From contig JAHEDX010000004.1 in assembly GCA_024641005.1 (NCBI GenBank), positions 1-64,000 on the forward strand: DNA of 64,000 nucleotides. Reading direction: 5' to 3'. Origin of the DNA: Acidimicrobiaceae bacterium (GTDB taxonomy: Bacteria; Actinomycetota; Acidimicrobiia; Acidimicrobiales; Ilumatobacteraceae). Below the pieces are notes generated by a model. The model did no database searches and had not been told where the DNA came from. It saw only the letters and a program-made list of their open reading frames with translations. This document shows positions 2,841-57,939 of this stretch, piece after piece (the stretch's first letter is position 1; every line of letters begins with the position of its first letter). The translations under genes and the position numbers were made by a program.

Positions 2841-3017
2841 CGGAATCTAGTCGTCATTCCAGGGGGCATTGTGAGGGTGAACGATGACTCCGCTCGGTTC
2901 GGGACCGGCCGTCGGGAAGCGGTCGATTCCGTGTGCGAGACGGTTTGTCGCTTGCGCAACGTGGTCTCGTGGTTAGGGTCGACCCAAGACCGACCGTTTG
3001 AGAATTGAGGTTTCACG

Positions 3018-3887: not shown

Positions 3888-3897
3888 CGGTGGGTCT

Positions 3898-3926
3898 CAC
3901 GGGTCGCCGGATGACCGGCGACCGTG
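3898..3926. terminator. Strong bidirectional hairpin exactly between two stop codons
   Basis: CACGG-(G)-TCGCCGG at 3898-3910 pairs with CCGGCGACCGTG at 3915-3926 around an ATGA loop, giving a 12-base stem with one bulged G. It fills the gap between the plus-strand stop and the minus-strand stop at 3927. There is no U-tract on either side, but the position and strength suggest shared transcription termination. Confidence 0.65.
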
Positions 3927-5411: not shown

Positions 5412-5501
5412 GGCTCAAACAGTAGGGGTTCGACGCTGGTACGACACCCTGGCGTCGAACGTCGAGCGCTGGTTGGTCGCTCGGCGGACGCGGACCTCCG
5501 T

Positions 5502-40905: not shown

Positions 40906-42165
40906 TCATCCCTCGGCCCAGTGGGCCTGGTACGTGGTGCGGGGCTCGACGGGGCCCTTGTCGGCATGTCGGCGCAGCTCGAGCCGGCCGATCTGATTGC
41001 GGTGGACCTCGTCGGGACCATCGGCGAGCCTGAGCAGGCGGGCGGTCGCGTACATCGCCGCCAACCCATAGTCATTGTTGGTACCGGCACCCCCGAACGC
41101 CTGGATCGCCCAGTCGACGATCTGGCACGCCATGTTGGGCGCCGCGACCTTGATCATCGCGATCTCGCGACGGGCTTGCTTGTTTCCCACGGTGTCCATC
41201 AGATGGGCGGTCTTCAGGGTCAGCAGTCGGGTCTGCTCGATGGCGATCCGCGCCTCGGCGATGCGTTCGAGCGTCACGGTCTGTTCGGCGATGGGACGAC
41301 CGAACGCGACCCGGTGTTGCACCCGTCGACACATCATCTCGAGTGCTCGTTCGGCGAGTCCGATCAGCCGCATGCAGTGATGGATGCGCCCAGGGCCGAG
41401 ACGACCCTGCGCGATCTCGAACCCCCGGCCTTCACCCAGCAGCATGTTGCTCGCCGGCACCCGCACGTCGGTGAACTGCACCTCTGACGCACGGTCTGGC
41501 ATGCCGTAGAAGTTGAACACGGGCAGCGGCCGGATGACCTCGACACCCGGCGTGTCCTTCGGGACCAGGATCATCGACTGCTGCCGGTGCCGGTCGGGGT
41601 TCGTCGGGTCGGACTTACCCATGAAGATGATGATCTCGCAGCGCGGGTGGGTGGCGTTCGTCGTGTACCACTTCCGACCGTTGATCACGTACTCGTCGCC
41701 GTCGCGGATGATCGAACTCTCGATGTTCGTCGCATCGCTGGAGGCGACCGCAGGTTCGGTCATGGCGAACGCCGACCGGATCTCGCCCGCCAGCAGCGGT
41801 GCGAGCCAGCGGGCTTGCTGCTCGGGCGTGCCGTAGCGGGCGATCGTCTCCATGTTCCCGGTGTCAGGTGCGGCGCAGTTGAACACCTCGGGCGCGAGAT
41901 GGCTGCGGCCCATGACCTCACACAGCGGTGCGTACTCGAGATTGGTCAGGCCGGCGCCGTCGTCGCTGTCGGGAAGGAACAGGTTCCAGAGCCCTGCTTC
42001 GCGTGCGAGCGGTTTGAGCTCTTCGACGACCGGCCACACCGCCCACGGCCCGAGTTCCATCGATTCGCTGAAGAAGCGGTCCTCATTCGGATAGATGTGC
42101 TCGTCCATGAACACTTCGAGTCGCTGGCGCAGCTCGTGTGTGCGGGGTTCCTCGTCGAAGTTCAT
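40906..42165 (-). CDS. Acyl-CoA dehydrogenase, ACAD11/IBR3-like
   Basis: A 419-residue flavin acyl-CoA dehydrogenase. Landmarks: [31 protein letters not shown], the [21 protein letters not shown] helix, and the C-terminal [10 protein letters not shown], which carries an Asp in place of the usual Glu of the R-x-YEGT motif, as in the ACAD11-like group that oxidises hydroxylated acyl-CoAs. It acts on a fatty or branched acyl-CoA in beta-oxidation. The start at 42165 is the first ATG that gives a natural N-terminus; in-frame codons upstream may extend it. It lies next to a FadR-type regulator. Confidence 0.85.
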
Positions 42166-42298
42166 CGCGGTGAGACGGTAGGGCAAGGCAAGCCTCGCGT
42201 CGTTGTCGAAGAGGTCGATCGGCTCGGCGGCGAGGGTGAGGCCGACTCGGGTAGGGGCCGGTGTTGGGTTGCGGCGCGTGCGGGCGCCGAGCAGTTCT

Positions 42299-43027
42299 TC
42301 ACGTCTGCACACCGGTGGGAGGCTGTCCCATCCTCGTCGGCGTTCCGGGTTTTCCGCTGCGGAGCTGCTCGATCCAGCGTTGCCGTTCGTCGACCTGCAC
42401 CACTGCGATCGACCTCGCGGTTTCGCTGTCCCCCCGTTCGAGCGCACCGAGCAGCAGCCGCTGATGGGAGAGCGCGATGTCGCGCATCGCCGGATCGGAA
42501 CTCAACCAGGTGCGCCGGATGTTCTCGCTGCGTACTTGCAGTGCGCGCAGGATCGAGCTGAGCGTCTCGTTGCCGGTCGCGTCGGCGATCATGGCCTGGA
42601 ACTCCCTGTGCAGCCCGGCGATCTCGTCGGTGTCGGTGGCCGATTCGAGCCGGTCGAGCATGACGCGCATCTCGCTGATCTGCTGGTCGGTGACGCGCTG
42701 TGCGGCCAGTGCTGCAGCGGGCGGGAGCAGCAGCCGGCGAACTTCGAGCACCTCCTCGAGGCCCTGTGGCTGCAGCAGTTCGATCGCGAATCCCAGGCCC
42801 GACAGCAGCTCGGTGGGGGCGAGGCTCGTCACGTAGGTCCCGTCGCCGCGCCGCACGTCGAGCACCTTGATCTGGGCCAGGGCTCGCACCGCCTCGCGAA
42901 GCGACCCACGCGACACACCGAGCCGGTCGGCCAGCTCGTTCTCGGGTGGGAGCCGGTCGCCCGGCCCCAGTTCGCCGGAACTGATCATCGCCCCGATGCT
43001 GTCGACCGCCCCCGTCGTGACACTCAT
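42299..43027 (-). CDS. GntR/FadR family regulator (FCD domain)
   Basis: A 242-residue GntR-type transcription factor. The N-terminal winged helix has the family signature [25 protein letters not shown] with VRRGDGTYV for the wing. Residues 90-220 are the helical FCD domain with His in LHREFQAMI and [14 protein letters not shown], likely metal and effector ligands. FCD-type regulators respond to organic acids or acyl-CoAs. It diverges from accB and precedes the acyl-CoA dehydrogenase on its own strand, so it probably controls both. Confidence 0.85.
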
Positions 43028-43311
43028 GCCCAAACCTCCAATGTTTCCGACCTCGTCGAGCCCAGCCTTCAGCCTGCCACACGGGCCGAGTGTCGCGGCA
43101 AGAATCTCGACCACATGGTGCGCTCGGATGCATCCTGCAGCGCGCGATCGTGGCGCTGCCGTCATCGCCGGTGGCGGCGGTTGGGCGATGTGGTTCGTGG
43201 TCGGGATTCCTGAAACGTATGATGATTCGAGGTGGGGCCGGGGGTCGGACCACCGAACCGTCCCGATCGGTCGTCTGGATGGCCAGACCCCATGGGCAGC
43301 GAGGAGGCGAG
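43028..43311. promoter_or_regulatory. Divergent promoter region of fadR-like and accB genes
   Basis: This 284-base gap lies between the start of the FadR-type gene and the GTG of accB. It contains GAGGAGG at 43301-43307, the accB ribosome binding site. A palindromic operator for the regulator would be expected but none stands out, and no clear -10/-35 boxes are visible. Confidence 0.45.
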
Positions 43312-43797
43312 GTGCACGGTTCTGGGGATGCGATCAAGCGGGTCGTGGAGGCGTTCGAGCGCTCGAACTGGACCGAGATCGATGTTCGCGTCGGTGACAT
43401 TCGGGTGCACCTGGTGGCCGGTGGAGCGGCGAGTGCGGCGCCCACCGAGGTGCCGGCGACTCCCGTGGGCTCGACCGCCATCTCGGCCGCTGTCGGTGTG
43501 CCGTCGATCGCACCCGTGCCGGTCGCCCTGGAGGTGCCTCCCGGGGCCCATCTGGTCACCGCTCCCTCACCGGGGATCCTGTGGCGCTCACCCGAACCCG
43601 GTGCACCACCGTTCGCCGACGTCGGTGACCAGCTCGAGTCATCGACCACGGTATGCATCCTCGAGGTCATGAAGTTGATGAGCCACATCAAGGCCGGGGT
43701 CGAGGGACAGGTCGTGGCGGTCTATGGCGAGAACGGCGTCGCCGTCGAGAAAGGGCAACCGTTGTTCGCGATCGCTCCCTCGCGGCAGATGTCATGA
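43312..43797 (+). CDS. accB: Biotin carboxyl carrier protein
   Basis: A 161-residue BCCP. After a hydrophilic Ala/Pro linker the biotinyl domain spans about 80-158, with the modified Lys in ILEVMKLMS (EVMKLM rather than the usual EAMKM), Gly turns on both sides, and an AIAPS C-terminus. Together with accC and the carboxyltransferase-like gene it would complete a three-protein biotin carboxylase. The start is the GTG at 43312 with GAGGAGG four bases ahead. Its stop overlaps the accC start by four bases. Confidence 0.88.
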   Translation: MHGSGDAIKRVVEAFERSNWTEIDVRVGDIRVHLVAGGAASAAPTEVPATPVGSTAISAAVGVPSIAPVPVALEVPPGAHLVTAPSPGILWRSPEPGAPPFADVGDQLESSTTVCILEVMKLMSHIKAGVEGQVVAVYGENGVAVEKGQPLFAIAPSRQMS

Positions 43798-45155
43798 CCA
43801 TCCGGCGAGTCCTGGTCGCGAACCGCGGCGAGATCGCAGTACGAATCGTCCAGGCCTGCCGGGCCGGAGGCATCGATGTGATCGTCGCCGTGAGTGATGC
43901 CGACCAGGACTCGCTCGCTGCGCGGTTGGCGAACGACGTCGTTCGCATCGGGCCGGCCAATCCGGCGTTGAGCTATCTGCGCGTCGAGCAGGTCATCGCC
44001 GCTGCCCTGCTCAGCGGATGTGACGCGGTGCATCCCGGATACGGCTTCCTGTCCGAGCGTGCCGAACTCGCCGATGCGTGTGTCGAGCACGGGTTGGTCT
44101 TCGTGGGTCCACCGGCGGACACCATCAGACGGGGCGGCGACAAGGTGGAGGCGCGCCGCGTCGCCCACTCCGCCGGGGTCCCGACCGGTTCGGGTTCGGC
44201 GTCGGTGGGCAGCGTCGATGCAGCGGTGGCGGTTGCAGCCGATGTCGGCTACCCGATCCTGCTCAAGGCCGCAGCGGGCGGTGGCGGCCGGGGCATGGTG
44301 CGCGTCGACACCCCGGATGCCCTCGCGTCACGTTTCGCGACGGCGTCGAGGGAGGCGGAGGCCGCTTTCGGCGACGGGCGCATGTACCTCGAGCGTTACG
44401 TCGAGCGAGCACGCCACGTCGAGGTGCAGCTGCTCGGTGACCACCACGGCAACATCGTCCATCTCGGCGACCGCGACTGTTCGACACAACGCCGCTTCCA
44501 GAAACTGGTCGAGGAAGCCCCGGCCGCCGTGCTGGCCGACGATCTCCGCCGGCGTATCTCCGATGCCGCAGTCGCGCTCGGTCGACGACTCGACTACCGC
44601 GGCGCGGGCACCGTCGAGTTCCTCGTCGATCTCGAACGCGACGACTTCTCCTTCCTCGAGATCAACACACGGATCCAGGTCGAGCACCCCGTGACCGAGA
44701 TGGTCACCGGGATCGACATCGTGCGTGAGCAGCTCCGCATCGCCGACGGCGAGCCGTTGGGGTTCGACCAAGGCGACGTCACGATCAGCGGGCACGCCAT
44801 CGAATGTCGTATCAACGCCGAGTCGGTCGTCGACGACTTCCGGCCGTCGCCCGGCACCATCACCCACTGGGCACCGCCGACCGAAGCCTGGGTCCGCGTC
44901 GACAGTCATGGGTTCGTCGGCTACGACGTCCCGCCGCATTACGACTCGTTGGTCGCCAAGCTGATCGTGACCGGGGCCGATCGAGACGAGGCGATCGACC
45001 GCTCACTCCGAGCGCTCGATTCGTTCCGGATCGACGGCATCGCCACGACGAGTCCGCTTCAGCGAGCCGTGCTCGCGCACGACGATTTTCGCAACGACAC
45101 CATCACCACCCAGTGGCTCGAGACGACCTTGCTGCCCAGCTGGTCGCCCGGCTGA
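43794..45155 (+). CDS. accC: Biotin carboxylase
   Basis: A 453-residue ATP-grasp biotin carboxylase. Motifs: VLVANRGEIAVR (biotin carboxylase N-domain), the Gly loop AAAGGGGRGM, EEAPAAVL, the active-site segment EINTRIQVEHPVTE, and a lid HYDSLVAKL. It carboxylates the biotin on AccB using bicarbonate and ATP. It overlaps accB by four bases (ATGA) and is followed 35 bases later by the carboxyltransferase-like gene. The usual residues appear present. Confidence 0.92.
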   Translation: MTIRRVLVANRGEIAVRIVQACRAGGIDVIVAVSDADQDSLAARLANDVVRIGPANPALSYLRVEQVIAAALLSGCDAVHPGYGFLSERAELADACVEHGLVFVGPPADTIRRGGDKVEARRVAHSAGVPTGSGSASVGSVDAAVAVAADVGYPILLKAAAGGGGRGMVRVDTPDALASRFATASREAEAAFGDGRMYLERYVERARHVEVQLLGDHHGNIVHLGDRDCSTQRRFQKLVEEAPAAVLADDLRRRISDAAVALGRRLDYRGAGTVEFLVDLERDDFSFLEINTRIQVEHPVTEMVTGIDIVREQLRIADGEPLGFDQGDVTISGHAIECRINAESVVDDFRPSPGTITHWAPPTEAWVRVDSHGFVGYDVPPHYDSLVAKLIVTGADRDEAIDRSLRALDSFRIDGIATTSPLQRAVLAHDDFRNDTITTQWLETTLLPSWSPG

Positions 45156-45190
45156 TCGTTCACGACGCAACCCGAGGAGGCATTTCATCC

Positions 45191-46654
45191 ATGGCGCAGA
45201 TCGACATCATCGACCAAACCCTCCGCGACGGCCAACAGAGCCTGTGGGGGATGAGAATGAAGGTCGCGCACCTCGCCGAGGTCGCCGACGACATCGATCA
45301 GGCGGGGTATCGCGTGGTCGACCTCACCGGCAGCTCCATCTTCGAGTGCATGATGCGCTACAACCGCGAAGATCCCTGGGACGGGCTCGACCTGTGGCGG
45401 ACATGGCTGCCGAACTCGCGATTGCGTGCCGGGTCGCGAAGCAACTGCATCGCGAAGTTCGGCCTCACACCCGACTCGCTCATGGAGCTGTGGATCCGCA
45501 CCCTGGCCAGGCACGGCATCGACAGTTTCTGGATCTACGACTGCCTCTACAACATGGACGCGATGCAGCGACTCTGTCGCGTCGTGTCCGACGAGGGCTG
45601 TGAGGTCGTGCCCGCGATCATGTATGGCATCAGCCCGGTGCACACCGACGAGTGGTTTGCCGACCGGGTCCGCGAGTACGTGGGTTGGGGTATCACCGAT
45701 GCCATCTATGTCGAAGACGCGGCGGGCATCCTGACGCCCGATCGTGCCAAGACGTTGCTGCCGGCGCTCGTCGAGGCGGCCGGTGAGGTGCCGGTCGAAC
45801 TGCAATGCCACAACACCGTCGGGATCGCCGGTTTGAACTATCTGATCGGGGTCGAAGCCGGCGTACGGATCCTGCACACCGCCCCCGGCCCGATGGCGAA
45901 CGGGCCGTCGGTGCCGTCGACCGAGCAGACCATCGAGAACCTCCGGTGGGAGGGCCACACGACGAGCGTCGACGTCGAACGGGTTCGCCAGGTGAGTGCG
46001 CACATGCGCCGGGTCGCGGAACAAGAAGGCCATCCCATCGGCATCCCCCACGAGTACAACGTGTTCCCGTACCACCACCAACTGCCCGGCGGTATGACCG
46101 GCACGCTGAAGGCCCAGCTCGCGCAATACGACATGTCGGATCGGTTCGAGGAAGTGCTCGAGGAGATCGTGCAGGTGCGCGCCGACCTGGGCCATCCCAT
46201 CTCGGCGACGCCGTTCTCGCAGCTGATGGGGATTCAGGCGACCCTGAACGTCGTGACCGGAGAGCGGTACGGCTCGGTGCCCGACGAGGTGCTCGTCTAC
46301 GTGCTCGGTCATTTGGGCGAGCCGCCTGCCCCGATCGACGAGAACGTGCTCGACCGGATGTTGTCGACGGATCGAGGGCGGGAGATGCAGGCGTGGGAGC
46401 CGCCGCAACCCACCATCGCAGAACTGAAAGCACAGTACGGAGATCGTTCGATGAGCGACGAGGAACTGCTGCGCCGTTACCTGGTTCCGCTTCAGGACGT
46501 CGAAGCGACCCGGGCCGCCGGGCCGGCGGCGCGCGCGTACCGATTCGACGACGCGGGGCTTCCCGAGTCGATGATCGAAGAATTGCTCGCCGGCACCCGA
46601 GCCTCTTTTGCCCACATCGAGACCGGCACGTCCACGGTCACCCTCCGGCGATGA
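45191..46654 (+). CDS. Pyruvate-carboxylase/oxaloacetate-decarboxylase-type carboxyltransferase with altered metal site
   Basis: A 487-residue DRE-TIM carboxyltransferase-like protein. The start DIIDQTLRDGQQS fits the family, and the downstream GGMTGTLKAQL and AISATPFSQL regions align with oxaloacetate decarboxylase alpha. The metal and carbamate residues differ: by alignment from memory, KDMAG is replaced by EDAAG, and the HTHDTSG metal pair becomes QCHNTVG, leaving one His. The C-terminal region after residue 330 is an unusual helical extension. It follows accC, so it should take carboxybiotin to an unknown acceptor, unless the altered site marks another reaction. The ATG at 45191 is the natural start. 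Confidence 0.8.
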   Translation: MAQIDIIDQTLRDGQQSLWGMRMKVAHLAEVADDIDQAGYRVVDLTGSSIFECMMRYNREDPWDGLDLWRTWLPNSRLRAGSRSNCIAKFGLTPDSLMELWIRTLARHGIDSFWIYDCLYNMDAMQRLCRVVSDEGCEVVPAIMYGISPVHTDEWFADRVREYVGWGITDAIYVEDAAGILTPDRAKTLLPALVEAAGEVPVELQCHNTVGIAGLNYLIGVEAGVRILHTAPGPMANGPSVPSTEQTIENLRWEGHTTSVDVERVRQVSAHMRRVAEQEGHPIGIPHEYNVFPYHHQLPGGMTGTLKAQLAQYDMSDRFEEVLEEIVQVRADLGHPISATPFSQLMGIQATLNVVTGERYGSVPDEVLVYVLGHLGEPPAPIDENVLDRMLSTDRGREMQAWEPPQPTIAELKAQYGDRSMSDEELLRRYLVPLQDVEATRAAGPAARAYRFDDAGLPESMIEELLAGTRASFAHIETGTSTVTLRR

Positions 46655-46805: not shown

Positions 46806-48434
46806 ATGACCGCATACGAGTTCGACACGACGCTCGACCCGAGCTATCCCGTCCTGACGCGCGGCAACGCCGGCGAGATCATGCCCGACATCGTGTCGCC
46901 GCTGTCGGCCACCGTGTTCTTCCCGCCGCTGGAACGGGCATGGCGACGCTCGTTCACCGAGACCTGGGACGTGATGGACTGGCCCGAGTGCCCGACGACC
47001 TTCGCGCCGATCATCGGTGGCCGCTTCTACATCAACATCTCGGCGTTCCGTCGGCTCGCCGACCTCACCCCGGGCACCAGTCCGGAGGACATCGACCGGA
47101 CCCTGTTCGCTGCGGGTGGCATCAAGCTCGAGCCCTACCGAACTCCTGACGAGCCGGGGTACGAGGGCAGGGGTGAGCGCATCGCAGCAGCCACCGCATC
47201 GTTCCTCGAAGACCCGCCGGTCGAGCGCATCCAACGCGAGCACGACGCTGCCCAGGCGCGGCGTGCCGAGGGGCGGGCGCGGCGTTCGGGTAGTTCGAAC
47301 GACGAACTGCTCGCGCGGTTCGAGTCGCTGCAGCCGTTCATGGAGTCCGACTTCGTCACTCTCTTCGTCGGGTCGTCGGTGAGCCCGGTGGTGCTCGGTT
47401 CGCTGCAGGCCGGTCTCGTCGAGGTGTACGGCCAAGAGGGATACGAGTTGGGACGCCAGGCGGTGATGGGCATCGGCGGGATCGAATCGGCGGATGCCGG
47501 CAAGGCGGTTGCATCCCTCGCTGCGCTCGAGGGCGACGAGTTCGAGGCGGCGTTCGAGCGAGTGCTCGAACAGTACGGGTTCCGTGGTGTGAACGAGTGG
47601 GAGATCGCTGCCCCCTCGTGGGAGATCCGAACCGATGTCCTCCGGCGTGCGGTCGGGGCCGTTCGTTCCGGCGGTGCCGAGCGCGACCCCGACGCCACGC
47701 GTCGGTCGGCGCTGGCGAAGTTCGACGCGGACGGTGTGCGGGACTCGTTTCCCGATCTCGATCTGTGGCTCGATCGCTGCACCGTGTGGATGGGCATCAG
47801 GGAGCGCACGAAGGCCACCTGTGTCCTCACGATCAACGAGATGCGCCTCGACGCACTCGAGATCGGTCGCCGGTTGGTGATCGACGGACGGTTGGAGTCC
47901 GCCGATCAGATCTATTTCCTCACCTTCGACGAGTTCCGTAACGCCGCCCGCGGCGAAGGTGTCGACCTCGACCGTATCCATACCCGGCAGGCGGCCAAGG
48001 CCGAACTGCTGCAGTACCAAGAGCCCTTGTTCGTCATCGCCGGCGAGGCGCCGCCCGTCGAGAACTGGCCCCGGAAGACCGACGCCGTCACGGGCTCCGA
48101 CGATCAGATCGAGATCACTGGCGCGGCGGGCAGCCCCGGCGTCGCGACGGGCAGGGCGCGCGTGGTGATGGACGCGTACGTCGACGACCCGCCCGAGCCG
48201 GGGGAGGTGCTGGTCGCGCCGATCACCGACCCGGGGTGGATGCCGTTGTTCGTCGGCGCGGTGGCTGTGGTGGCCGAGATGGGGGGCGAGTTGAGCCACA
48301 CGATGATCGTGTCGCGCGACCTCGGCATCCCGGCGGTGGTCGGTGCAGTCGGCGCCACCGCCGTCATCAAGACCGGTGACCTGATTCGGGTCGACGGGTC
48401 GAACGGCACGATCCGTATCGTGGAGCGGGCATGA
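46806..48434 (+). CDS. PEP-utilising-enzyme mobile-domain protein without ATP-grasp domain
   Basis: A 542-residue protein whose C-terminus is the phosphohistidine swivel domain of PEP synthase and PPDK: GGELSHTMIVSRDLGIP with the phospho-accepting His498. The residues before it (about 50-430) are mostly helical and lack both the ATP-grasp nucleotide domain and the PEP TIM barrel. Phenylphosphate synthase of phenol-degrading bacteria uses a similar split, with a His-swivel subunit and a separate ATP subunit, so phosphoryl transfer to an alcohol or phenol is plausible. No ATP-domain partner is encoded nearby. It overlaps the SDR gene by four bases. Confidence 0.75.
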   Translation: MTAYEFDTTLDPSYPVLTRGNAGEIMPDIVSPLSATVFFPPLERAWRRSFTETWDVMDWPECPTTFAPIIGGRFYINISAFRRLADLTPGTSPEDIDRTLFAAGGIKLEPYRTPDEPGYEGRGERIAAATASFLEDPPVERIQREHDAAQARRAEGRARRSGSSNDELLARFESLQPFMESDFVTLFVGSSVSPVVLGSLQAGLVEVYGQEGYELGRQAVMGIGGIESADAGKAVASLAALEGDEFEAAFERVLEQYGFRGVNEWEIAAPSWEIRTDVLRRAVGAVRSGGAERDPDATRRSALAKFDADGVRDSFPDLDLWLDRCTVWMGIRERTKATCVLTINEMRLDALEIGRRLVIDGRLESADQIYFLTFDEFRNAARGEGVDLDRIHTRQAAKAELLQYQEPLFVIAGEAPPVENWPRKTDAVTGSDDQIEITGAAGSPGVATGRARVVMDAYVDDPPEPGEVLVAPITDPGWMPLFVGAVAVVAEMGGELSHTMIVSRDLGIPAVVGAVGATAVIKTGDLIRVDGSNGTIRIVERA

Positions 48435-49168
48435 GTATCAGCTTCGACTTCACCGGCCGCACCGTTCTCGTCACCGGCGGGGCCCGTGGGATCGGGAGGG
48501 GCCTGAGCGACTTCTTCGCCGATGCCGGCGCAACGCTCGCCGTCGCCGACGTCGATGCCAGGGCTCTCGCCGAGGTAACGACCGCGCTCCCCGCAGCGAT
48601 ACCCCTCGAGATCGACGTCTCCGATCCAGCATCGGTGGCCGCGGGGGTCGCCGACGTGGTCGAGCGCACCGGTCGGCTCGATGTCGTCGTCAACAACGCG
48701 GGAATCCTGCGCGACCGGGTCGTGTGGAAGCTCACTGACGACGACTGGCATGCGGTGCTCGGGGTACACCTCACGGGGACGTTCAACATGACGCGTGCAG
48801 CGGTCCCGGCGATGCGCGACCAGGGATACGGTCGCATCGTCAACGTCACGTCGTACACCGGTTTGCACGGCAACATCGGCCAGGCCAACTACGCCGCCGC
48901 CAAGGCAGGGATCATCGGCTTCACCCGTACGACAGCGAAGGAACTCGCCCGCTTCGGCATCACGGTGAACGCCATCTCGCCCAACGCCGAGACCGACATG
49001 GTGGCCTCGATCCCCGAGGACAAGTTGGCCGAACTGAGGGCACAGGTGCCGATGGGCCGTTTCTCGGCGCCCGCCGAGGCCGCCCCGGCGGTCGCGTTCC
49101 TGGCATCGGAAGAGGCCGGCTACATCACCGGCGTGGTACTTCCCGTCGACGGAGGCCTCTCGATCTGA
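48431..49168 (+). CDS. SDR family oxidoreductase (FabG-like)
   Basis: A 245-residue classical short-chain dehydrogenase. The cofactor loop is VTGGARGIGRG, the NNAG motif is present (VVNNAGILRD), the catalytic YxxxK is NYAAAKAG, and the Ser sits in VTSYTG. It would reduce a 3-oxoacyl-type or hydroxy-acyl substrate with NAD(P)H. The start overlaps the previous stop (ATGA) and the acyl-CoA ligase follows after about 45 bases, so it belongs to the carboxylation operon. The substrate is not evident. Confidence 0.87.
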   Translation: MSISFDFTGRTVLVTGGARGIGRGLSDFFADAGATLAVADVDARALAEVTTALPAAIPLEIDVSDPASVAAGVADVVERTGRLDVVVNNAGILRDRVVWKLTDDDWHAVLGVHLTGTFNMTRAAVPAMRDQGYGRIVNVTSYTGLHGNIGQANYAAAKAGIIGFTRTTAKELARFGITVNAISPNAETDMVASIPEDKLAELRAQVPMGRFSAPAEAAPAVAFLASEEAGYITGVVLPVDGGLSI

Positions 49169-49212: not shown

Positions 49213-50796
49213 GTGGTGAGGATGACGTCGCCGCTCCACGACCCGCCTCTGTTCCCTCACCTGGTCATCCGAAGCCTCGAAGCCCGCGAAGACGAACCCT
49301 GCATCCACCTCGCCGGTCGGGTCGCGACGTACGGAGAGATCCGACGTCGTACGAGCCAGCTGGTGCAGGCCCAGCGTTCCCGCGGCGTCACCCTCGGGAC
49401 GCGGTTGGCCGTGCTGTCGAAGAACCGACCGGAGGTGCTCACCAACCTCACCGCGTCGCTCGTGAACGGTTGCGTGATCACGCCGCTGCACCCGATGGGA
49501 TCGTTCTCCGACCACGCTTACGTGATCGGCGACGCCGAGATCGAGTGCCTCGTGTTCGACGCCGACCATTTCTCCGAACGGGCGAGCGAGTTGCGTGCGC
49601 AGTACCCGAATCTCGTGCTGCTCGGGTTCGGGCCCAACGACGTCGGCGACGACTACCTGGCGCTCGCCGACCAGTACGAACCGGCGCCGCTCGAGGCGCC
49701 GGACGTGCGGCCCGACGACCTGTGCACGATCGTGTACACCGGCGGCACCACGGGGCGTCCCAAAGGTGTGCTGATGAGTCATCGCGTCTGGCAGGCGATG
49801 ACGTGGATCCAGATCGCGGAGTGGGAGCTGCCCCACGAACTCCGCATGGCGATCGCCACGCCACTGTCGCACGCGGCGATGTCGTTGGTCGCTCCGGTGT
49901 TGGTCTCGGGTGGGGCGTTCTACGTGATGGAGGCGTTCAGTCCGGCCGGGTTCTTCGACCTCGTCGAGCAACACCGGATCACGGCGACGCTGATCGTGCC
50001 CGTCATGCTCTACGCGCTTCAGGGGGATGCCCGCTACCGAACCGCCGACATGTCGTCGATGGAGACCGTGTTCTACGGCGCCTCACCGATGAGCCCAGCC
50101 AAGCTCGCCCAGGCGATCCGGGACTGGGGTCCGATCTTCTATCAGTTCTACGGGCAGACCGAGGCACCGATGGTCATCGCCCACCTCAAGCGTGGCGAAC
50201 ACGACCTCGAGCGTCCCGAGCGTCTCGCCTCGTGCGGGCGACCCGTGCCGTGGATGCATGTCGCACTCCTCGACTCGAACGACCAACCCGTGCGGCCCGG
50301 GGCGTCGGGTGAGATCTGCACCCGGGGCCCCTTGGTGATGTCGGGCTACAAGGATCTGCCCGACGAAACCGCCGAGGCGTTGTCGGGTGACTGGCTGCAC
50401 ACGGGTGACGTCGGCCGCTTCGACGAAGAGGGCTACCTCTACATCGTCGACCGCACCAAGGACATGGTGATCACCGGCGGCTTCAACGTCTTCCCCCGGG
50501 AGGTCGAAGACGTCATCAGCGCTCACCCCGCCGTGAGCATGGTGATGGTCATCGGTGTGCCCGACGATAAATGGGGCGAGGCGGTCAAGGCGGTCGTCGT
50601 GCTCCAGCCCGGACACGAAGCATCCGATGACCTGACGCGAGAACTGCAGCAGTTGGTCAAGTCCCACAAGGGCTCGCAGCAAGCACCCAAGACGATCGAC
50701 TATGTCGACTCCCTGCCGCTGACCCCCGTCGGCAAACCCGACAAGAAGGCGGTCCGGTCCGGGTACTGGTCCGAGACCGGGCGGGCGGTCTCGTAG
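49213..50796 (+). CDS. Acyl-CoA synthetase (AMP-forming)
   Basis: A 527-residue adenylate-forming ligase. The P-loop-like motif is YTGGTTGRPKG, followed by FYGQTEAPMV and the hinge TGDVGRFDEEGYLYIVDRTKDM, with the C-terminal catalytic Lys region GKPDKKAVR. It activates a carboxylic acid to its CoA thioester. The substrate may be a short or aromatic acid imported by the adjacent ABC system. Start codons GTG (49213 and 49216) and ATG (49222) are all in frame; GGTGAGG lies directly before the ATG. Its stop faces the binding-protein gene across a hairpin. Confidence 0.88.
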   Translation: MVRMTSPLHDPPLFPHLVIRSLEAREDEPCIHLAGRVATYGEIRRRTSQLVQAQRSRGVTLGTRLAVLSKNRPEVLTNLTASLVNGCVITPLHPMGSFSDHAYVIGDAEIECLVFDADHFSERASELRAQYPNLVLLGFGPNDVGDDYLALADQYEPAPLEAPDVRPDDLCTIVYTGGTTGRPKGVLMSHRVWQAMTWIQIAEWELPHELRMAIATPLSHAAMSLVAPVLVSGGAFYVMEAFSPAGFFDLVEQHRITATLIVPVMLYALQGDARYRTADMSSMETVFYGASPMSPAKLAQAIRDWGPIFYQFYGQTEAPMVIAHLKRGEHDLERPERLASCGRPVPWMHVALLDSNDQPVRPGASGEICTRGPLVMSGYKDLPDETAEALSGDWLHTGDVGRFDEEGYLYIVDRTKDMVITGGFNVFPREVEDVISAHPAVSMVMVIGVPDDKWGEAVKAVVVLQPGHEASDDLTRELQQLVKSHKGSQQAPKTIDYVDSLPLTPVGKPDKKAVRSGYWSETGRAVS

Positions 50797-50886: not shown

Positions 50887-52221
50887 TCAGTCGGCGATCC
50901 CCATCGCCAGATTGCCGACGTCCTCGAAACCGCCGTCCAACGGAACGACCTTGCCGTTGTCGAGCGTGCTGTACACGACGCTGCGGTTGAACAGACGCTG
51001 GTAGCCGTCGAGCCCGTCGGTCCATTCCTGGGTGAAGTCGAGCACCGGCACCATGCCGTTGAGGTCGAGACTGGACGTGGTCGATGCCGCTTGGTAGAAC
51101 GACTCGGCGGTCACATCGCCATCGATCGACTCGGCGATCTTGGTGAAGCCGACGAATGCTGCCCACGTGCCCATGCCACCCAGACTGTTGTAGTCGAGTG
51201 CGCTGGTGTCGAGGCCGGCCTCGTCGAGCGCCACCCGGTACTCGGACCACGGGTCGGTCGAGATGTCGGGGTACATGCCCACGATGATGTCACCGTCGGT
51301 CGCAGCCTCGTTCCCCTTGGCGGACACCTCGTTGAGGTTGCCCTGGGGGCCGTACTGGCGAGCCTCGGTACCCGACTGGGTCCACGCCGTGTTCCAGGTG
51401 ATGAAGGGCGTCTCGGAGACGATGACGATCACACAGTCGGCGTCACCGCTGGTTGCCTTGGCCACTTCGGCCGAATAGTCCTGAGCGGTCGGTGGGAGGA
51501 TCACGACCTCACCGAAGCTCTTGCCCAGCGCCTTGATCGCGTTCTCCATCGGCGGGATGAAGATCTGGGCTCCGTCGATGATCACGGCGTTGATGTTCTG
51601 GCAACCGTCGTCGACCGCCTTCTTCACCGCTCCGACCGCATACATCGGCTGGTTGCCGATGTTGAACGAGTACGGGCTGGTGAGCTCGGACGGTGTGATC
51701 GGGCAGCAGGCCCCGAACCATGTGATGCTCGATTCGGCGATGACCGGAACGATCGACTCTGCGAAGTAGGTGAACGAACCGACGATGGAGACCATGCCCT
51801 CCTCGACCGCCTGACGTGCGCAGGTGGTCGCAACGGCCGGATCGAACTGCTCATCACAGACGGTGACCTCGAGCGGATGCCCGGCGACACCACCACGAGC
51901 GTTGATGTACGTCGCGTACGCCTCGGCGGTGTTGGCGATGTTCTCGTAGGTCGGCCCGGCCGCGTTGAGCGTCGTCACGGTCATGACCTTGATGGGGTCG
52001 CCGGTCGGTTCGGTCGGTGCGTCGGTGGACGTGGGTGCGTCGGTGGCCGTGGGTGCGTCGGTGGCGGTGGGTGCGTCGGTAGCCGTGGGTGCGTCGGTGG
52101 CGTCGGGTGCGGTGGTCGTGTCATCGTCGCCGCCACAGGCAGCCAGCGTGAGCGCGATCGCCACGAGCGGCGCGACCATCGTCCGCAAGGATCGTGTGCG
52201 GTGAGCAGGTGCTCTGGTCAT
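50887..52221 (-). CDS. Branched-chain-type ABC transporter substrate-binding lipoprotein
   Basis: A 444-residue periplasmic-binding-protein type I lipoprotein. The lipobox gives Cys29 (LTLAAC), then an acidic region followed by repeats of ATDAPT (about 38-65). The binding fold follows: GPTYENIANTAEAYATYINARGGVAGHPLEV at the start of lobe 1 and QPMYAVGAVKKAVDDG for the ligand cleft. It resembles LivK/urea/aromatic-acid binding proteins; ligands in this family include amino acids, short carboxylates and benzoates. It diverges from the fused permease gene with 290 bases between starts. Confidence 0.87.
   Translation of the reverse strand: MTRAPAHRTRSLRTMVAPLVAIALTLAACGGDDDTTTAPDATDAPTATDAPTATDAPTATDAPTSTDAPTEPTGDPIKVMTVTTLNAAGPTYENIANTAEAYATYINARGGVAGHPLEVTVCDEQFDPAVATTCARQAVEEGMVSIVGSFTYFAESIVPVIAESSITWFGACCPITPSELTSPYSFNIGNQPMYAVGAVKKAVDDGCQNINAVIIDGAQIFIPPMENAIKALGKSFGEVVILPPTAQDYSAEVAKATSGDADCVIVIVSETPFITWNTAWTQSGTEARQYGPQGNLNEVSAKGNEAATDGDIIVGMYPDISTDPWSEYRVALDEAGLDTSALDYNSLGGMGTWAAFVGFTKIAESIDGDVTAESFYQAASTTSSLDLNGMVPVLDFTQEWTDGLDGYQRLFNRSVVYSTLDNGKVVPLDGGFEDVGNLAMGIAD
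52013..52102 (-). repeat. Five 18-bp tandem repeats within the binding-protein linker
   Basis: The 18-base unit (GTGGGTGCGTCGGTGGCC and variants) is repeated at 52031, 52049, 52067 and 52085, with a diverged fifth copy at 52013. It encodes the ATDAPT linker next to the lipid anchor, so copy-number change would alter linker length in steps of six residues. Confidence 0.88.
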
Positions 52222-52511
52222 GTCAATTGTCCCCCTCTTGCTTGTTTGGCACGCCAGGTCTGCCCGATTCGGCAGCGACAGGACCCCTTGCGCCTTGGAT
52301 GTCGTCATTCCATCACAAAACATCCAATGTCCGCTATGTCGGAGCAACGAGGTGACGAGTCGGCTCGATAGCGGGAGATGCAGCGTCTTCGCTGGTCAAC
52401 GAACCGAACCTCCGATACGTCGGCGAGGTGGCGGTGCGTTATACGATCGCCTGACGCGTCGACCGATCCGATGTCTGGGTGTGCCCGGCACGGAACGGCG
52501 AGAGGGGGACG

Positions 52512-55256
52512 ATGAACGAGGTCATCAGGTTCGCACTGTTGGGGTTGGGTGTCGGCGCGCTCTACGCGTTGGCGTCGCAGGGACTGATCGTCATCTACCG
52601 CGGTACCGGTGTGCTGAACTTCTCGCTCGGTGCCACGGCGATCGCCGGCGTCTTCCTGCAGTGGGAGTTGCAGTACGAGCAGGGGTGGCCGTTCTTGGCC
52701 GCATCGTTGGCGGGCATCGCGCTGTCGGCGTTGCTCGGTGCGCTGACCCACTGGGTGATCATGCGGCCGTTGCGCCGTGCGAGCTCACTCATCCGTGTGA
52801 TCGCCACGCTCGGGGTCTTGATCACGATCCAGGCCGGAGTGGTGATCCGCTACGGCTCGAACCCGCGACAGATCGAGAGTTGGTTGCCGACGAACCGGGT
52901 GACGCTGTGGGGCGATGTCGCCATCACCGTCGACCGGCTGATCCTCATGGCGATCGCGAGCGCGTCGGCGTTCGGCCTGTGGCTGCTCTATCGCGCCACC
53001 CAGTTCGGGCTCGCCACCGAGGCGGTGTCCGAGAGCGAACGCTCTGCCTCCGCTGTAGGGGTGTCACCGAACCAGGTCGCGCTCGTGAACTGGGCGCTCG
53101 GCTCAGCGCTCGCCGCGATGGCCGGAATCCTCGTCGTTCCGATCATCACCTTGCAGGTGACAGCGATGACAGGTCTGGTGTTGGCGGCGCTCGCCGCGGC
53201 ACTGGTGGCCGACTTCAGGTCCTTCCCGATCGCCACAGCGGCTGGTCTCGTGCTCGGGATCGGGCAGACGTTGGTCGGTCGCTTCGTCGACCAGCAGGGC
53301 CTCGGCCCGTCGCTGCCGTTCCTGGTCATCATCGTGTTCCTGGTGTTGCGCGGTCGGTCGATCCCGCTGCGTGACTACTTCTTGCGAGAACTGCCGATGG
53401 TGGGGAACGGTCGCATGTCGTGGGACTGGACGATCTTCGCGTCCGGCGCCGTCGTCTTCATCATGTTGACGAAGCAGACGAAATGGATCGACGCCTTCAC
53501 CGTCTCCTTGGGCGTGGCGATCGTCCTGCTCTCGATCGTGGTCTTGACCGGTTATGCCGGCCAGCTGTCGCTCGCCCAGTATGCGATCGCCGGCTTCGGT
53601 GCCTATGTCGCAGGTCGACTGGTCGCGGTCTTCGACATCCCCTTCCTGCTGGGTCTGGCCGCCGGGGTGGCAGCCGCCGTCCCGCTCGGCGTGCTCTTCG
53701 GGTTGCCTGCCGTGAGGACCAGAGGCATCAACCTCGCAATCGTCACACTCGGCCTGGGGACGACGATGGAACTCATGTTGTTCCGCAACCGCGACTACAC
53801 CGGCGGTGTCCAAGGCACCCAGGTCGGGAACCCCGAGATCTTCGGCTATGACATCGGTTCCATCAATCATCCCGAGCGCTACGGCATCTTCGTGTTGGCG
53901 ATGGCGCTGTTGGCGGTGTGGGTGGTGGCCAATGTCAGGCGGGGTCGCAGCGGCCGGCGTCTCATCGCGGTTCGCACCAACGAGCGGGCGGCAGCCGCGC
54001 TCGGCATCGATGTGATGCTCGCCAAACTGTTTGCCTTCGCGCTCGCCTCCGCGATCGCGGCGCTCGGCGGCATCCTGCTGGCGTTCCGCCTCAGTTCGAT
54101 CAGCTATCAGTCCTTCAGCAACTACACGTCGATCACCTATGTCGGGCTCGCACTGCTCGGCGGTGTCGGCTATTTGCTCGGTGCGTTCGTCGGCTCGACG
54201 ATGGCGACGGCCGGAGTCAGCCAGGAGGTGCTCGAGTCGACCTGGGGTGGAGTCGGGCGCTGGATCCAGCTGATCAGCGGCATCGCGATCCTGCTGACGG
54301 TGCTGGGCTACAAGGATGGTGTGGCCGCCGAATGGGACCGGCTGTACACGTTGTTCAAGCGGTCGAAGAAGTGGGGACGTCCGTACACGATCGAACTCGA
54401 GGACGTCGCCGACACGGCTGCCGACGCCGATCACCCGGCGTTGGTGCCACCCCGCACGCTCTCTGTCGAAGGGTTGACGGTGCAGTACGGGGCCGTTGTT
54501 GCCGTCGATGATGTCAGCTTCCGGCTCGAGCCCGGTCGGATCACCGGCCTGATCGGGCCGAACGGTGCCGGTAAGACGTCGCTCATCGATGCGTTGAGCG
54601 GGTTCACCCCCGCCTCTGGCCGGGTGGTGCTCGAGGGCCTCGATCTCAGCGCGGAGCCGGCGGTCAAGCGGGCCCGCGCCGGGCTCGCGAGATCGTTCCA
54701 GTCGCTCGAGTTGTTCGAGGACTCGACCGTCTTCGAGAACATCAGCGTGGCCGCCGACCCACAGGATCTCCGCTCGTACGTGCGAGATCTCGTGTGGCCG
54801 GTCAATCCACCGTTCCCGGCCGAGGTCGTGCGGGCGATCGTCGAGTTCCAGCTCGACGACGAACTCCATCGTGACGTCAAGGACCTGTCGTACGGCAAGC
54901 GTCGACTGTTGGCGATCGCCAGGGCCGTGGCGATGCATCCCAGCGTGATCCTGCTCGACGAGCCGGCAGCGGGCCTGAGTTCGGCGGAGACCGCCGAGTT
55001 GGGTCGGGTGGTGCGGCGCTTGGCCGACGAGTGGGGGATGGCGGTTCTGGTCGTCGAGCACGACATGAACTTCGTGATGGAGGTCTGCGACGAGGTGATC
55101 GTCCTCGACTTCGGGCGGCTGATCGCAGACGGCACGCCCGAGGAAGTTCGCTCCGACCCTGCCGTCATCGTCGCCTATCTCGGTCTCGACACCGATCACG
55201 AACCAGACGGTTCCCCGGTGTCGTTGCCGACACACGTCGCCGGAGGTGGATCATGA
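52512..55256 (+). CDS. Fused LivH-LivM-LivG: two permeases and one ATPase in a single polypeptide
   Basis: A 914-residue protein that joins three ABC-importer components. Residues 1-300 form a LivH permease (GLIVIYRGTGVLNFSLG at the front), 303-620 a LivM permease (LTGYAGQLSLAQYAIAGFGA and VRTNERAAAALGI), and 648-900 a LivG ATPase with Walker A GPNGAGKTS at about 682-690, a signature LSYGKRRLL at about 792, and Walker B VILLDEPAAG at 811-820. The signature lacks the usual LSGGQ. Each part is complete and the frame is continuous. AGAGGGGGA precedes the ATG. It overlaps livF by four bases. Confidence 0.9.
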   Translation: MNEVIRFALLGLGVGALYALASQGLIVIYRGTGVLNFSLGATAIAGVFLQWELQYEQGWPFLAASLAGIALSALLGALTHWVIMRPLRRASSLIRVIATLGVLITIQAGVVIRYGSNPRQIESWLPTNRVTLWGDVAITVDRLILMAIASASAFGLWLLYRATQFGLATEAVSESERSASAVGVSPNQVALVNWALGSALAAMAGILVVPIITLQVTAMTGLVLAALAAALVADFRSFPIATAAGLVLGIGQTLVGRFVDQQGLGPSLPFLVIIVFLVLRGRSIPLRDYFLRELPMVGNGRMSWDWTIFASGAVVFIMLTKQTKWIDAFTVSLGVAIVLLSIVVLTGYAGQLSLAQYAIAGFGAYVAGRLVAVFDIPFLLGLAAGVAAAVPLGVLFGLPAVRTRGINLAIVTLGLGTTMELMLFRNRDYTGGVQGTQVGNPEIFGYDIGSINHPERYGIFVLAMALLAVWVVANVRRGRSGRRLIAVRTNERAAAALGIDVMLAKLFAFALASAIAALGGILLAFRLSSISYQSFSNYTSITYVGLALLGGVGYLLGAFVGSTMATAGVSQEVLESTWGGVGRWIQLISGIAILLTVLGYKDGVAAEWDRLYTLFKRSKKWGRPYTIELEDVADTAADADHPALVPPRTLSVEGLTVQYGAVVAVDDVSFRLEPGRITGLIGPNGAGKTSLIDALSGFTPASGRVVLEGLDLSAEPAVKRARAGLARSFQSLELFEDSTVFENISVAADPQDLRSYVRDLVWPVNPPFPAEVVRAIVEFQLDDELHRDVKDLSYGKRRLLAIARAVAMHPSVILLDEPAAGLSSAETAELGRVVRRLADEWGMAVLVVEHDMNFVMEVCDEVIVLDFGRLIADGTPEEVRSDPAVIVAYLGLDTDHEPDGSPVSLPTHVAGGGS

Positions 55257-56140
55257 GTGCCTTGCTCGAAACCCGCAGCCTCAAGGCGGGGTATCTGGGC
55301 CGAGAGGTGGTGCAAGCCGTCAACCTCAAGGTCCAGCCCGGAGAGGTGGTCTGTCTGCTCGGTCCCAACGGGGCGGGCAAGACGACCACCTTGCTCACCA
55401 TCGCCGGGGAACTGGATCCGGTCGACGGCCTCGTCATGTTCAGCAACGTGCCGACCTTCACCCCGATGTACCAGCGGGTTCGCGATGGCGGAATCGGTCT
55501 GGTCACCGAGGACCGCTTGGTGTTCACGAAGATGTCGACACGCGACAACCTGCGAATCGGGGGTGGCTCGGTCGAAAAGGCGTTGGAGTTGTTCCCCGAA
55601 CTCGAGCCGCGTCTGTCGGTGCGGGGCGGCATGCTCTCGGGCGGTGAGCAGCAGATGCTGGCCCTCGCCCGTGCGTTGAGCCGCGACCCGAAGCTGCTGC
55701 TCGCGGACGAGATGTCGCTCGGGCTCGCACCCATGATCGTCGACCGCTTGCTCGGCGCGGTTCGGCGTGCCGCCGACGAACACGGAACCGGCGCGTTGAT
55801 CGTCGAGCAGCATGCGCACAAGGCGTTGCGCTACAGCGACCGTATGTACCTGATGGCTCGCGGCCAGATCCTGTTGGAGTTGAGCGCCGAGGAGGCGCTC
55901 TCCCGGCTCGACGAGATCGAGGAGGCGTATCTGCGGGGCACGTCCGAGACCGAGGAAGACCACATCGAGCGGTTGCGTCGCAAGAACAAGCGCAAAGCAT
56001 GGCGGCGACAACGAGTTCGCGAACGCGAGCTCCACCGACTGTCGGGGAAGACCATCTCCACCAGGAAGGAAGAAGATGACGAGTACTACTTCGAGGCTGA
56101 ACGCCAGCGGCGCGAGTGGGCGCAGCGGGTGCGGAGGTAA
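55253..56140 (+). CDS. livF: LivF-type ABC ATPase with charged C-terminal extension
   Basis: A 295-residue ATPase of the branched-chain amino acid type. Walker A is GPNGAGKTT (37-45), the signature LSGGEQQ (128-134), and Walker B LLLADEMSLG (148-157). The last 67 residues (229-295) are a highly charged helix (EEDHIERLRRKNKRKAWRRQ and onward) not found in ordinary LivF, perhaps a contact to the fused partner. Its start overlaps the fused gene stop by four bases (ATGA). A DUF3556-like gene starts six bases after its stop. Confidence 0.88.
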   Translation: MSALLETRSLKAGYLGREVVQAVNLKVQPGEVVCLLGPNGAGKTTTLLTIAGELDPVDGLVMFSNVPTFTPMYQRVRDGGIGLVTEDRLVFTKMSTRDNLRIGGGSVEKALELFPELEPRLSVRGGMLSGGEQQMLALARALSRDPKLLLADEMSLGLAPMIVDRLLGAVRRAADEHGTGALIVEQHAHKALRYSDRMYLMARGQILLELSAEEALSRLDEIEEAYLRGTSETEEDHIERLRRKNKRKAWRRQRVRERELHRLSGKTISTRKEEDDEYYFEAERQRREWAQRVRR

Positions 56141-56145
56141 CTGAC

Positions 56146-57939
56146 ATGGCATATCGCACCGCAGAGCTTCCTCCCGTGGAGCTCGACGAGTTCTCGAAGA
56201 TTCCGTTCTTCGAACGCATGAAGATGCTGCAGCTCCACTGGGTGGAGGAGGGCTTCGGCACGCCGAAGCAGACGATCACGTTCTATGCGTGGAAGATCTT
56301 CTTCTACGGGTTGTTCGGATTGATCGTCGCCGGAGCGTTCACGGCCGGGCTCGAGTTCAACAACATCGGTGGTTGGTGGGACGAACCGATCCTCTACCAG
56401 AAGCTGATGATCTGGACCATCCTGATGGAGATCCTCGGCCTGGCCGCCACGTGCGGTCCGCTGGCGTTTCACTTCGATCCGCCGATCGGAGGGGTTCTGT
56501 ACTGGTGGCAGCAGGACACCCTTCGGGTACCGCCGTACCCGAAGCGTCTCCCTTTCACGCGGGGGACGCGTCGTACACCATGGGACACCGGGCTCTACAA
56601 GCTGATCGTGTTCTGGCTGGTGATGATGCTGTTCCTCTCGGGCGAGCAGGTCGACGGGTTGCCGGAGGGCCGGGCCGGGGTGATGCCGCAGTGGGCGTTG
56701 ATCGTCTATTGCTGTCTCATCTTGACGATGGGTCTGCGTGACAAGGTGGTGTTCCTGTCATCGCGCGCCGAGCAGTATGTGCCGACCCTGTTGTGCTTCG
56801 GGTTGTTCAGCAACTTCGTCGACATGGTGGTCGCCGCCAAGATCTTCATCGTCTTGATCTGGATGGGCGCCGGCTTCTCGAAGCTGCAGCACGGCTTCTC
56901 GTGCACGGTGGCGATCATGGTGCAGAACACCCCGTGGGTCGTGTGGGACAAGTTCCGCAAGGCGACCGTGAGGGACTACCCGAACGATCTCCGGCCGTCG
57001 AAACTCACCCATTTCATGGCTCACGTCGGTGGCACCACCGCCGAGCTCGTGATGCCGCTCGTGCTGCTGTTCTCTCCGTGGCCGTGGTTGACGTGGATCG
57101 CGATCATCTCGATGTGGATGCTCCACACCTTCATCATCTCGACCTTCCCGCTGGCGGTGCCCTTGGAGTGGAACGTCTTCTTCATGTTCTGCGCCGGGTT
57201 CCTGTTCGCCAACTTCCACGCCGGCAGCGGCTACGGGGTCGGCGACATGGATCCTGTGTTGTTGGCGATCGTCGTGTGCGGGGGGCTCGCTCCGATCGTG
57301 CTCGGAGCGTTGAAACCCGAGTACGTCTCGTTCCTGGTCGGCATGAAGCAGTACGCAGGCAACTGGGCGTCGGCGACGTTCTCTTTCCGCGACAAGTCGA
57401 TGGAGGACCGCATCAACGAGCGGATCGTCAAGTCGGCTGACAACCAGATCGACCAGATCGAGCCCTTGTTCGGCAAGGAGATCTCCGAGATCTTCATCCA
57501 GAAGGCGCTCGCGTTCCGGATGATGCACCCGATGGGCCGGATGCACTACTCGGCGCTGATGCGGCACACGCCGTCGCTCGACGACCGGGTACAGCGCGAG
57601 GGAGAGTTCGTCAGCAATGTCCTGACCGGATGGAACTTCGGTGACGGCCACTGCATCGACGAACGGCTGATCAGCGGGCTGCAAGAGCGGTGTCAGTACG
57701 AGCCGGGTGACGTCGTGATCGCGTTCACCGAGTCGCAGCCGGCGTTCAACAAGAAGGTGCAGTACCGGGTGATCGACGCAGCGGTTGGTGTGGTCGAGAA
57801 GGGGTGGTATCACAATGACGATGCCTTCAACACCCAACCCTGGTTGCCCGACGGCCCGATCCCGCACACGATCACCTGGACGAGGCCCGGCTACGAGGCA
57901 CCGGGGGTCGCCTACCCGGGTGCCGGTGGCCGCAGCTGA
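56146..57939 (+). CDS. DUF3556-like polytopic membrane protein
   Basis: A 597-residue protein with about nine membrane helices in the first 400 residues and a soluble 190-residue C-terminus (NQIDQIEPLFGKEISEIF onward, ending in Pro/Gly). The size and pattern (YWWQQDTLRVPPYPKRLPF and the FHAGSGYGVGDMDP motif) match DUF3556 proteins, which are found almost only in Actinomycetota and whose function is unknown. It follows livF after six bases and precedes an oxidoreductase gene, so it may help the importer or process its substrate at the membrane. Confidence 0.75.
   Translation: MAYRTAELPPVELDEFSKIPFFERMKMLQLHWVEEGFGTPKQTITFYAWKIFFYGLFGLIVAGAFTAGLEFNNIGGWWDEPILYQKLMIWTILMEILGLAATCGPLAFHFDPPIGGVLYWWQQDTLRVPPYPKRLPFTRGTRRTPWDTGLYKLIVFWLVMMLFLSGEQVDGLPEGRAGVMPQWALIVYCCLILTMGLRDKVVFLSSRAEQYVPTLLCFGLFSNFVDMVVAAKIFIVLIWMGAGFSKLQHGFSCTVAIMVQNTPWVVWDKFRKATVRDYPNDLRPSKLTHFMAHVGGTTAELVMPLVLLFSPWPWLTWIAIISMWMLHTFIISTFPLAVPLEWNVFFMFCAGFLFANFHAGSGYGVGDMDPVLLAIVVCGGLAPIVLGALKPEYVSFLVGMKQYAGNWASATFSFRDKSMEDRINERIVKSADNQIDQIEPLFGKEISEIFIQKALAFRMMHPMGRMHYSALMRHTPSLDDRVQREGEFVSNVLTGWNFGDGHCIDERLISGLQERCQYEPGDVVIAFTESQPAFNKKVQYRVIDAAVGVVEKGWYHNDDAFNTQPWLPDGPIPHTITWTRPGYEAPGVAYPGAGGRS

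Follow-up and report, generated by a model that had tools for sequence, protein, structure and literature searches.

The three adjacent plus-strand genes at positions 43312-46654 of the window, by which we mean the whole 64,000-nucleotide stretch of DNA analyzed, probably encode (probability roughly 0.6) a three-component biotin-dependent carboxylase of catabolic function that acts on an imported CH-acid other than pyruvate, most likely a ketone. The genes specify a biotin carrier, a biotin carboxylase, and a carboxyltransferase (CT), and the CT lacks two residues that hold the metal in its relatives of known structure.

Three carboxylase genes and an altered metal site

The biotin carboxyl carrier protein (BCCP; 43312..43797, 161 amino acids) matches PF00364 and the NCBIfam BCCP model (91 bits). 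Its gene starts with GTG preceded by AGGAGG, and the biotin-accepting Lys121 (codon at 43672-43674) lies within EVMKLM. The biotin carboxylase gene (43794..45155, 453 amino acids; PF00289, PF02786, and PF02785; PRK08591, 597 bits) begins before the BCCP gene ends (43794 versus 43797), and the motifs of the protein, those of the ATP-grasp fold included, are all intact (GGGGRGM, RHVEVQ, QRRFQK, EINTRIQVEHPVTE, and ECRI). A first-pass annotation had described a complete carrier and biotin carboxylase set, and we agree. The CT (45191..46654, 487 amino acids; PF00682 and PF02436), whose gene has a ribosome-binding site upstream, has the fold of pyruvate carboxylase (PC), oxaloacetate decarboxylase (OadA), and transcarboxylase 5S. 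It is an HMGL-like barrel rather than the crotonase-fold CT of acetyl-CoA/propionyl-CoA-type carboxylases.

The first ~390 residues of the CT align with the two-subunit pyruvate carboxylase 5ks8 (E 1.5e-64), with OadA 2nx9, and with transcarboxylase 5S 1rqb. Moreover, a predicted model (pLDDT 90) has a PC-type barrel and funnel and matches 5ks8_D with a Z score of 43.5 across 435 residues. The best NCBIfam match is PRK09282 at 324.6 bits, under the family cut-off of 402. In PC-type CTs of known structure, one of the groups that hold the metal is a lysine, which must first become carboxylated. In the three alignments, EDAAG of the window CT falls on KDM(A)(G/S/A) and QCHNT falls on HxHxT, such that Glu175 (VEDAAG; GAA at 45713..45715) stands at the position of the carboxylated Lys and Gln205 (LQCHNT; CAA at 45803..45805) at that of the first metal His. 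In the predicted model, residues 175 and 205 are placed on barrel strands 172-176 and 202-206. Two of the four ligands that mark the PC/OadA/5S metal site (Asp, carboxylated Lys, and HxH) are therefore changed. The first-pass annotation had named both substitutions and proposed structure-based alignment to pyruvate carboxylase and oxaloacetate decarboxylase as a check, and both residues indeed fall where it placed them. Sequencing error at Gln205 was ruled out, as the same Glu/Gln pair is found in three related genomes (L044, L045, and L046; 82-87% identical) and thus four genomes agree.

What remains of the site is familiar. The second metal His is kept as His207 (45809-45811), Asp13 (45227..45229) is the metal-ligand Asp and is present in all 95 aligned homologs, and Gln16 corresponds by alignment to the pyruvate-site Gln of PC, OadA, and 5S. 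The metal ligands of Lactococcus PC are reported to include two His, an Asp, and a carboxylysine, and its Arg606 to bind pyruvate (PMC9581989); read from the alignment, Arg83 (45437..45439) appears to be the counterpart of Arg606. PC beta, OadA alpha, and 5S share with the window CT the fold, the Asp, the second His, and the pyruvate-site Arg and Gln, but they have the Lys and first His, are ~30% identical, and occur in other genomic contexts. The DRE-TIM metallolyases (HMG-CoA lyase and isopropylmalate/homocitrate synthase) belong to the same barrel superfamily, match the CT weakly and locally in sequence, and hold their metal without a carboxylated Lys. Unlike the window CT, however, they have neither biotin partners nor a PYC_OADA domain (PF02436). 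The earlier assertion that the double loss would block a pyruvate-type reaction is not established, as the carboxylate of Glu could replace the carboxylated Lys and Gln could, in principle, ligate a metal.

A clade of carboxyltransferases without the lysine

Three-part carboxylases for acceptors other than pyruvate are already known: HpeCBA of Rhodococcus rhodochrous GD02 and AcvCDE of Sphingobium SYK-6, with XccBCA of Aromatoleum aromaticum EbN1 as a homolog. All three resemble the window enzyme in consisting of three separate subunits with a PC-type CT. HpeCBA carboxylates 4-phospho-acetovanillone and 4-phospho-acetophenone, not the free ketones (PMC9618137), and acts after HpeHI has phosphorylated the substrate (PMC9618137; PMC12167813). 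Variants of the Hpe pathway have been reported (PMC13101465). Here, the characterized GD02, SYK-6, and EbN1 proteins were represented by plasmid clusters with the same gene set, from Rhodococcus sp. JS3073 (L038) and Rhizobium leguminosarum (L041). The window CT is 34-40% identical to the CTs of hpe-like clusters, and 35-40% identical to those of L038 and L041. CTs of hpe-like clusters have Lys-His-His and Thr83 (11 of 11), whereas the clade of the window CT has lost the Lys and kept the Arg.

A scan of 84,980 species genomes, with search patterns that favor the clade of the window, found at least 79 loci with relatives and at least 244 confirmed stretches. Among 95 CTs, position 175 is Glu in 49, Tyr in 28, Gly in 10, Lys in 7, and Ala in 1. 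Every Tyr-type CT has HxN in place of HxH, and Gln205 is confined to the window and L044-L046. Lys-His-His was kept in all Lys-bearing proteins examined, PC-, OadA-, and 5S-like proteins included. In a tree rooted on PC, OadA, and 5S, every Lys-less CT falls to the same side of a single branch (99% SH-aLRT), and Tyr/Asn, Gly, and Gln each arise once. A second tree, from which the trait columns were dropped and PC rows excluded and in which 29 more Lys-type proteins were included, gathered 67 Lys-less rows on a single branch (99%) and 11 Hpe-like Thr83 rows on another (100%). The window CT does not group with the hpe-like CTs, and its clade is probably the sister of their branch. Both trees were quick searches with long branches, however, so the sister relationship is likely rather than proven.

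Loss of the Lys marks a large clade, and loss of the first His is limited to a small lineage of Ilumatobacteraceae. We suggest that the metal site was reorganized early in the clade and not merely in the window protein, because differing solutions are tolerated there, as seen in the Gly, Ala, and Tyr/Asn relatives. In the open-licence papers searched, we found nothing on Lys-less PC-type CTs or on this clade beyond the Hpe papers, and no biochemical data for its members. The unusual acceptor has published precedent, and for the missing carboxylysine none was found in that literature. A natural clade that lost the Lys once and then diverged provides ready-made test cases for the role of that Lys. 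The clade also points to unexplored carboxylation pathways in actinobacteria and proteobacteria, beside the lignin-ketone pathway described in 2022.

Neighboring genes and host genome

The gene downstream of the CT encodes a 542-residue phosphotransferase component (46806..48434, plus strand; PF00391) with a C-terminal swivel domain, catalytic His498 in GGELSHTMIV, and no ATP-grasp domain. The protein resembles HpeH of HpeHI (hhalign against HpeH homologs, probability 99.9, E 1e-34) and matches 5fbs (E 4.8e-29), an entry deposited as PEP synthase that we take to be rifampin phosphotransferase. Its predicted model was too poor (pLDDT 52) and was left out of the evidence. Next on the plus strand are a short-chain dehydrogenase (SDR; 48431..49168, 245 amino acids; PF13561), whose start overlaps the preceding stop, and an AMP-forming acyl-CoA ligase (49213..50796, 527 amino acids; PF00501), which scores 603 bits against PRK06188, misses the cut-off of 875, and has FadD8 as its nearest model. 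On the minus strand, a divergent GntR/FCD regulator (42299..43165; PF00392 and PF07729) has homologs near CTs in 13 loci, and an acyl-CoA dehydrogenase (40906..42447) is 72-76% identical to dehydrogenases that neighbor Tyr-type CTs in alpha- and gammaproteobacteria (L083, L093, and L114). A branched-chain-type ABC importer follows at 50887..56140 (PF13458, PF02653, and PF00005): a binding protein (50887-52347, minus strand), a permease-ATPase fusion (52479-55256, plus strand), and an ATPase (55031-56140, plus strand), for which we give the longest reading frame and the true start lies further downstream. Importer homologs occur near the CTs of L046 and L063 and partially in L045 and L065. Beyond the importer are genes for a DUF3556 membrane protein (56116-57939, 701 bits) and a CrtO-like oxidoreductase (57967-59391); both are kept in L045, and the DUF3556 gene is also kept in L046.

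Each of the four members of the window lineage has the swivel phosphotransferase gene downstream of the CT (76-83% identical). Between the two, L044 has an inserted gene (2668-3969, minus strand) that by eye looks histone-deacetylase-like. The next CT relatives, from Acidithrix ferrooxidans (67%) and Pseudonocardia dioxanivorans (68%), instead have a split phosphotransferase module, in which a short swivel protein, a protein of ~510 amino acids, an acyl-CoA ligase, and a protein of ~200 amino acids are followed by an ATP-grasp-plus-swivel protein and a tyrosine-phosphatase-type gene (domains taken from the Rhodococcus version). Two conserved proteins of the module, encoded in L024 at 4578-6155 (525 amino acids) and 7638-8246 (202 amino acids), had no match in Pfam (E 0.01) or NCBIfam (E 1e-10). 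Among loci that span 17 kb or more, phosphotransferase genes were found in 44 of 47 from five sub-lineages of the clade, including all three nearest relatives outside the window lineage, and in none of the 12 long loci of a sixth sub-lineage (14 loci in all); the queries were drawn from such clusters, so kinases of other kinds would be missed. Many of the same clusters, L046 of the window lineage among them, also contain genes of the tyrosine-phosphatase type, and gene order around the CT is kept across distant genomes. We note that Gly-type clusters from Nanopelagicales and other actinobacterial metagenome-assembled genomes (MAGs; L052, L055, L056, L057, and L058) carry a second, divergent CT on the opposite strand, 47-48% identical to that of the window, so that one pathway may there involve two carboxylases.

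The host encodes a PEP carboxylase, and no other PC-type CT was found in its genome at E 0.001. Among 10 genomes of the genus, its own included, there was one other close copy (87%) and one more relative at 37%. An anaplerotic role is therefore unlikely. So is the idea that the window enzyme is the pyruvate carboxylase of the genome, given the PEP carboxylase and the absence of the gene from most relatives in the genus. The findings agree better with an accessory, catabolic gene set.

No ATP-grasp partner for the phosphotransferase was found near the locus. In the genome, ATP-grasp matches of the phosphotransferase family are limited to a PEP synthase and a PPDK-like protein, and the candidate on C167 was rejected as an HpeI ortholog because it is a full-length PEP synthase (791-amino-acid frame). 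No HpeI-like partner was found in the genome, although at 94% completeness the assembly could lack one. Elsewhere, the genome encodes at least three additional HpeH-like swivel proteins of full length (31-33% identical; C162:6572, C113:28949, and C116:47210), and no dedicated ATP-grasp partner was found there for them either. With that many paralogs, the swivel protein of the window could serve another step.

Proposed reaction and alternatives

How the window enzyme might work can be outlined from its parts. Biotin carboxylase would load CO2 onto the Lys121-biotin of the carrier, using ATP and bicarbonate, and the CT would transfer it to the carbon beside the carbonyl of the acceptor. Arg83 and Gln16 would hold an anionic or polar group of the acceptor, as in PC. 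A divalent metal would be held by Asp13, by His207, by Glu175 in place of the carboxylated Lys, and perhaps by Gln205. We propose that, with Glu175 standing in, CO2-dependent lysine carboxylation would not be needed. Retention of the metal with Glu175 among its ligands is a tentative assignment, and the Gly-, Ala-, and Tyr/Asn-type relatives indicate that a Glu ligand is not required everywhere in the clade. Phosphorylation of the substrate, or of an intermediate, would fall to the HpeH-like protein, much as HpeHI acts in the acetovanillone pathway; its phosphate donor is not encoded in the neighborhood. The ligase would then turn the beta-keto acid product into a CoA ester, for the dehydrogenases to process.

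That the acceptor is something other than pyruvate is very likely, because a PEP carboxylase is present, the cluster is patchy within the genus, and its neighbors include the phosphotransferase, ligase, SDR, and acyl-CoA dehydrogenase genes together with those of the ABC importer. A ketone-type acceptor is probable, and the chances that the acceptor or an intermediate is phosphorylated appear evenly balanced. The first-pass annotation had raised the prospect of a new acceptor; the gene neighborhoods back a non-pyruvate acceptor, but such an acceptor has precedent in HpeCBA (PMC9618137). We think that the window enzyme probably works like HpeCBA, as a three-part carboxylase with a non-pyruvate and perhaps phosphorylated acceptor, but lies outside the Hpe branch. 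More tentatively, the clade without the carboxylated Lys, mostly paired with a split dikinase that would phosphorylate the substrate, may represent a second carboxylation pathway that depends on phosphorylation, distinct in its acceptors and in how the enolate is stabilized.

Perhaps the enzyme is simply a pyruvate carboxylase or oxaloacetate decarboxylase whose metal site has drifted while pyruvate or oxaloacetate is still the substrate. Arg83, Gln16, Asp13, and His207 are kept, and the closest solved structures are PC beta, OadA, and 5S, but Lys-His-His is universal among the PC/OadA/5S-like sequences examined and the NCBIfam cut-off is missed. Moreover, the genome has a PEP carboxylase, the gene is patchy in the genus with catabolic neighbors, and G214 carries a Lys-less relative alongside a canonical-looking PC-type protein (1129-amino-acid frame). 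We consider this reading improbable. Also improbable is a true hydroxyphenylethanone (Hpe/Acv) carboxylase of 4-phospho-acetophenones, despite the same three-part make-up, the probable sister branch, and the HpeH-like gene in the operon. Identity is low, Glu and Arg83 stand in place of Lys and Thr83, and the window contains no homologs of HpeI, HpeD (HAD protein), HpeF, or the acetoacetate-CoA-ligase-type and amidohydrolase proteins of hpe-like clusters.

A carboxylase of yet another acceptor, such as a free keto acid or a CoA thioester, that proceeds by no phosphorylated intermediate is unlikely but deserves a place, with the swivel protein then acting in a separate step. Arg83 is kept as in keto-acid enzymes, the locus has no ATP-grasp partner, and the sub-lineage in which phosphotransferase genes were found in 0 of 12 long loci indicates that phosphorylation is not constant across the clade. 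The swivel gene nevertheless follows the CT in every member of the window lineage, and most other sub-lineages have a phosphotransferase module. Finally, change of two of four metal ligands might signal an inactive or non-carboxylating paralog. We regard this as very improbable, as residues are conserved within lineages, the carrier and carboxylase motifs are intact, and gene order is maintained across distant genomes.

We also note a variation among Hpe-type clusters themselves. On plasmids of Sphingomonas bisphenolicum AO1, Pseudomonas putida YC-AE1, and Novosphingobium humi, a gene for a Tm-1-like ATP-binding protein occupies the place of HpeHI before an Hpe-type carboxylase and a HAD gene (L026, 4972-6204; L040, 4883-6130; and L042, ~4989-6176, respectively). 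This protein may be MarK, a single-component kinase that PMC13101465 mentions.
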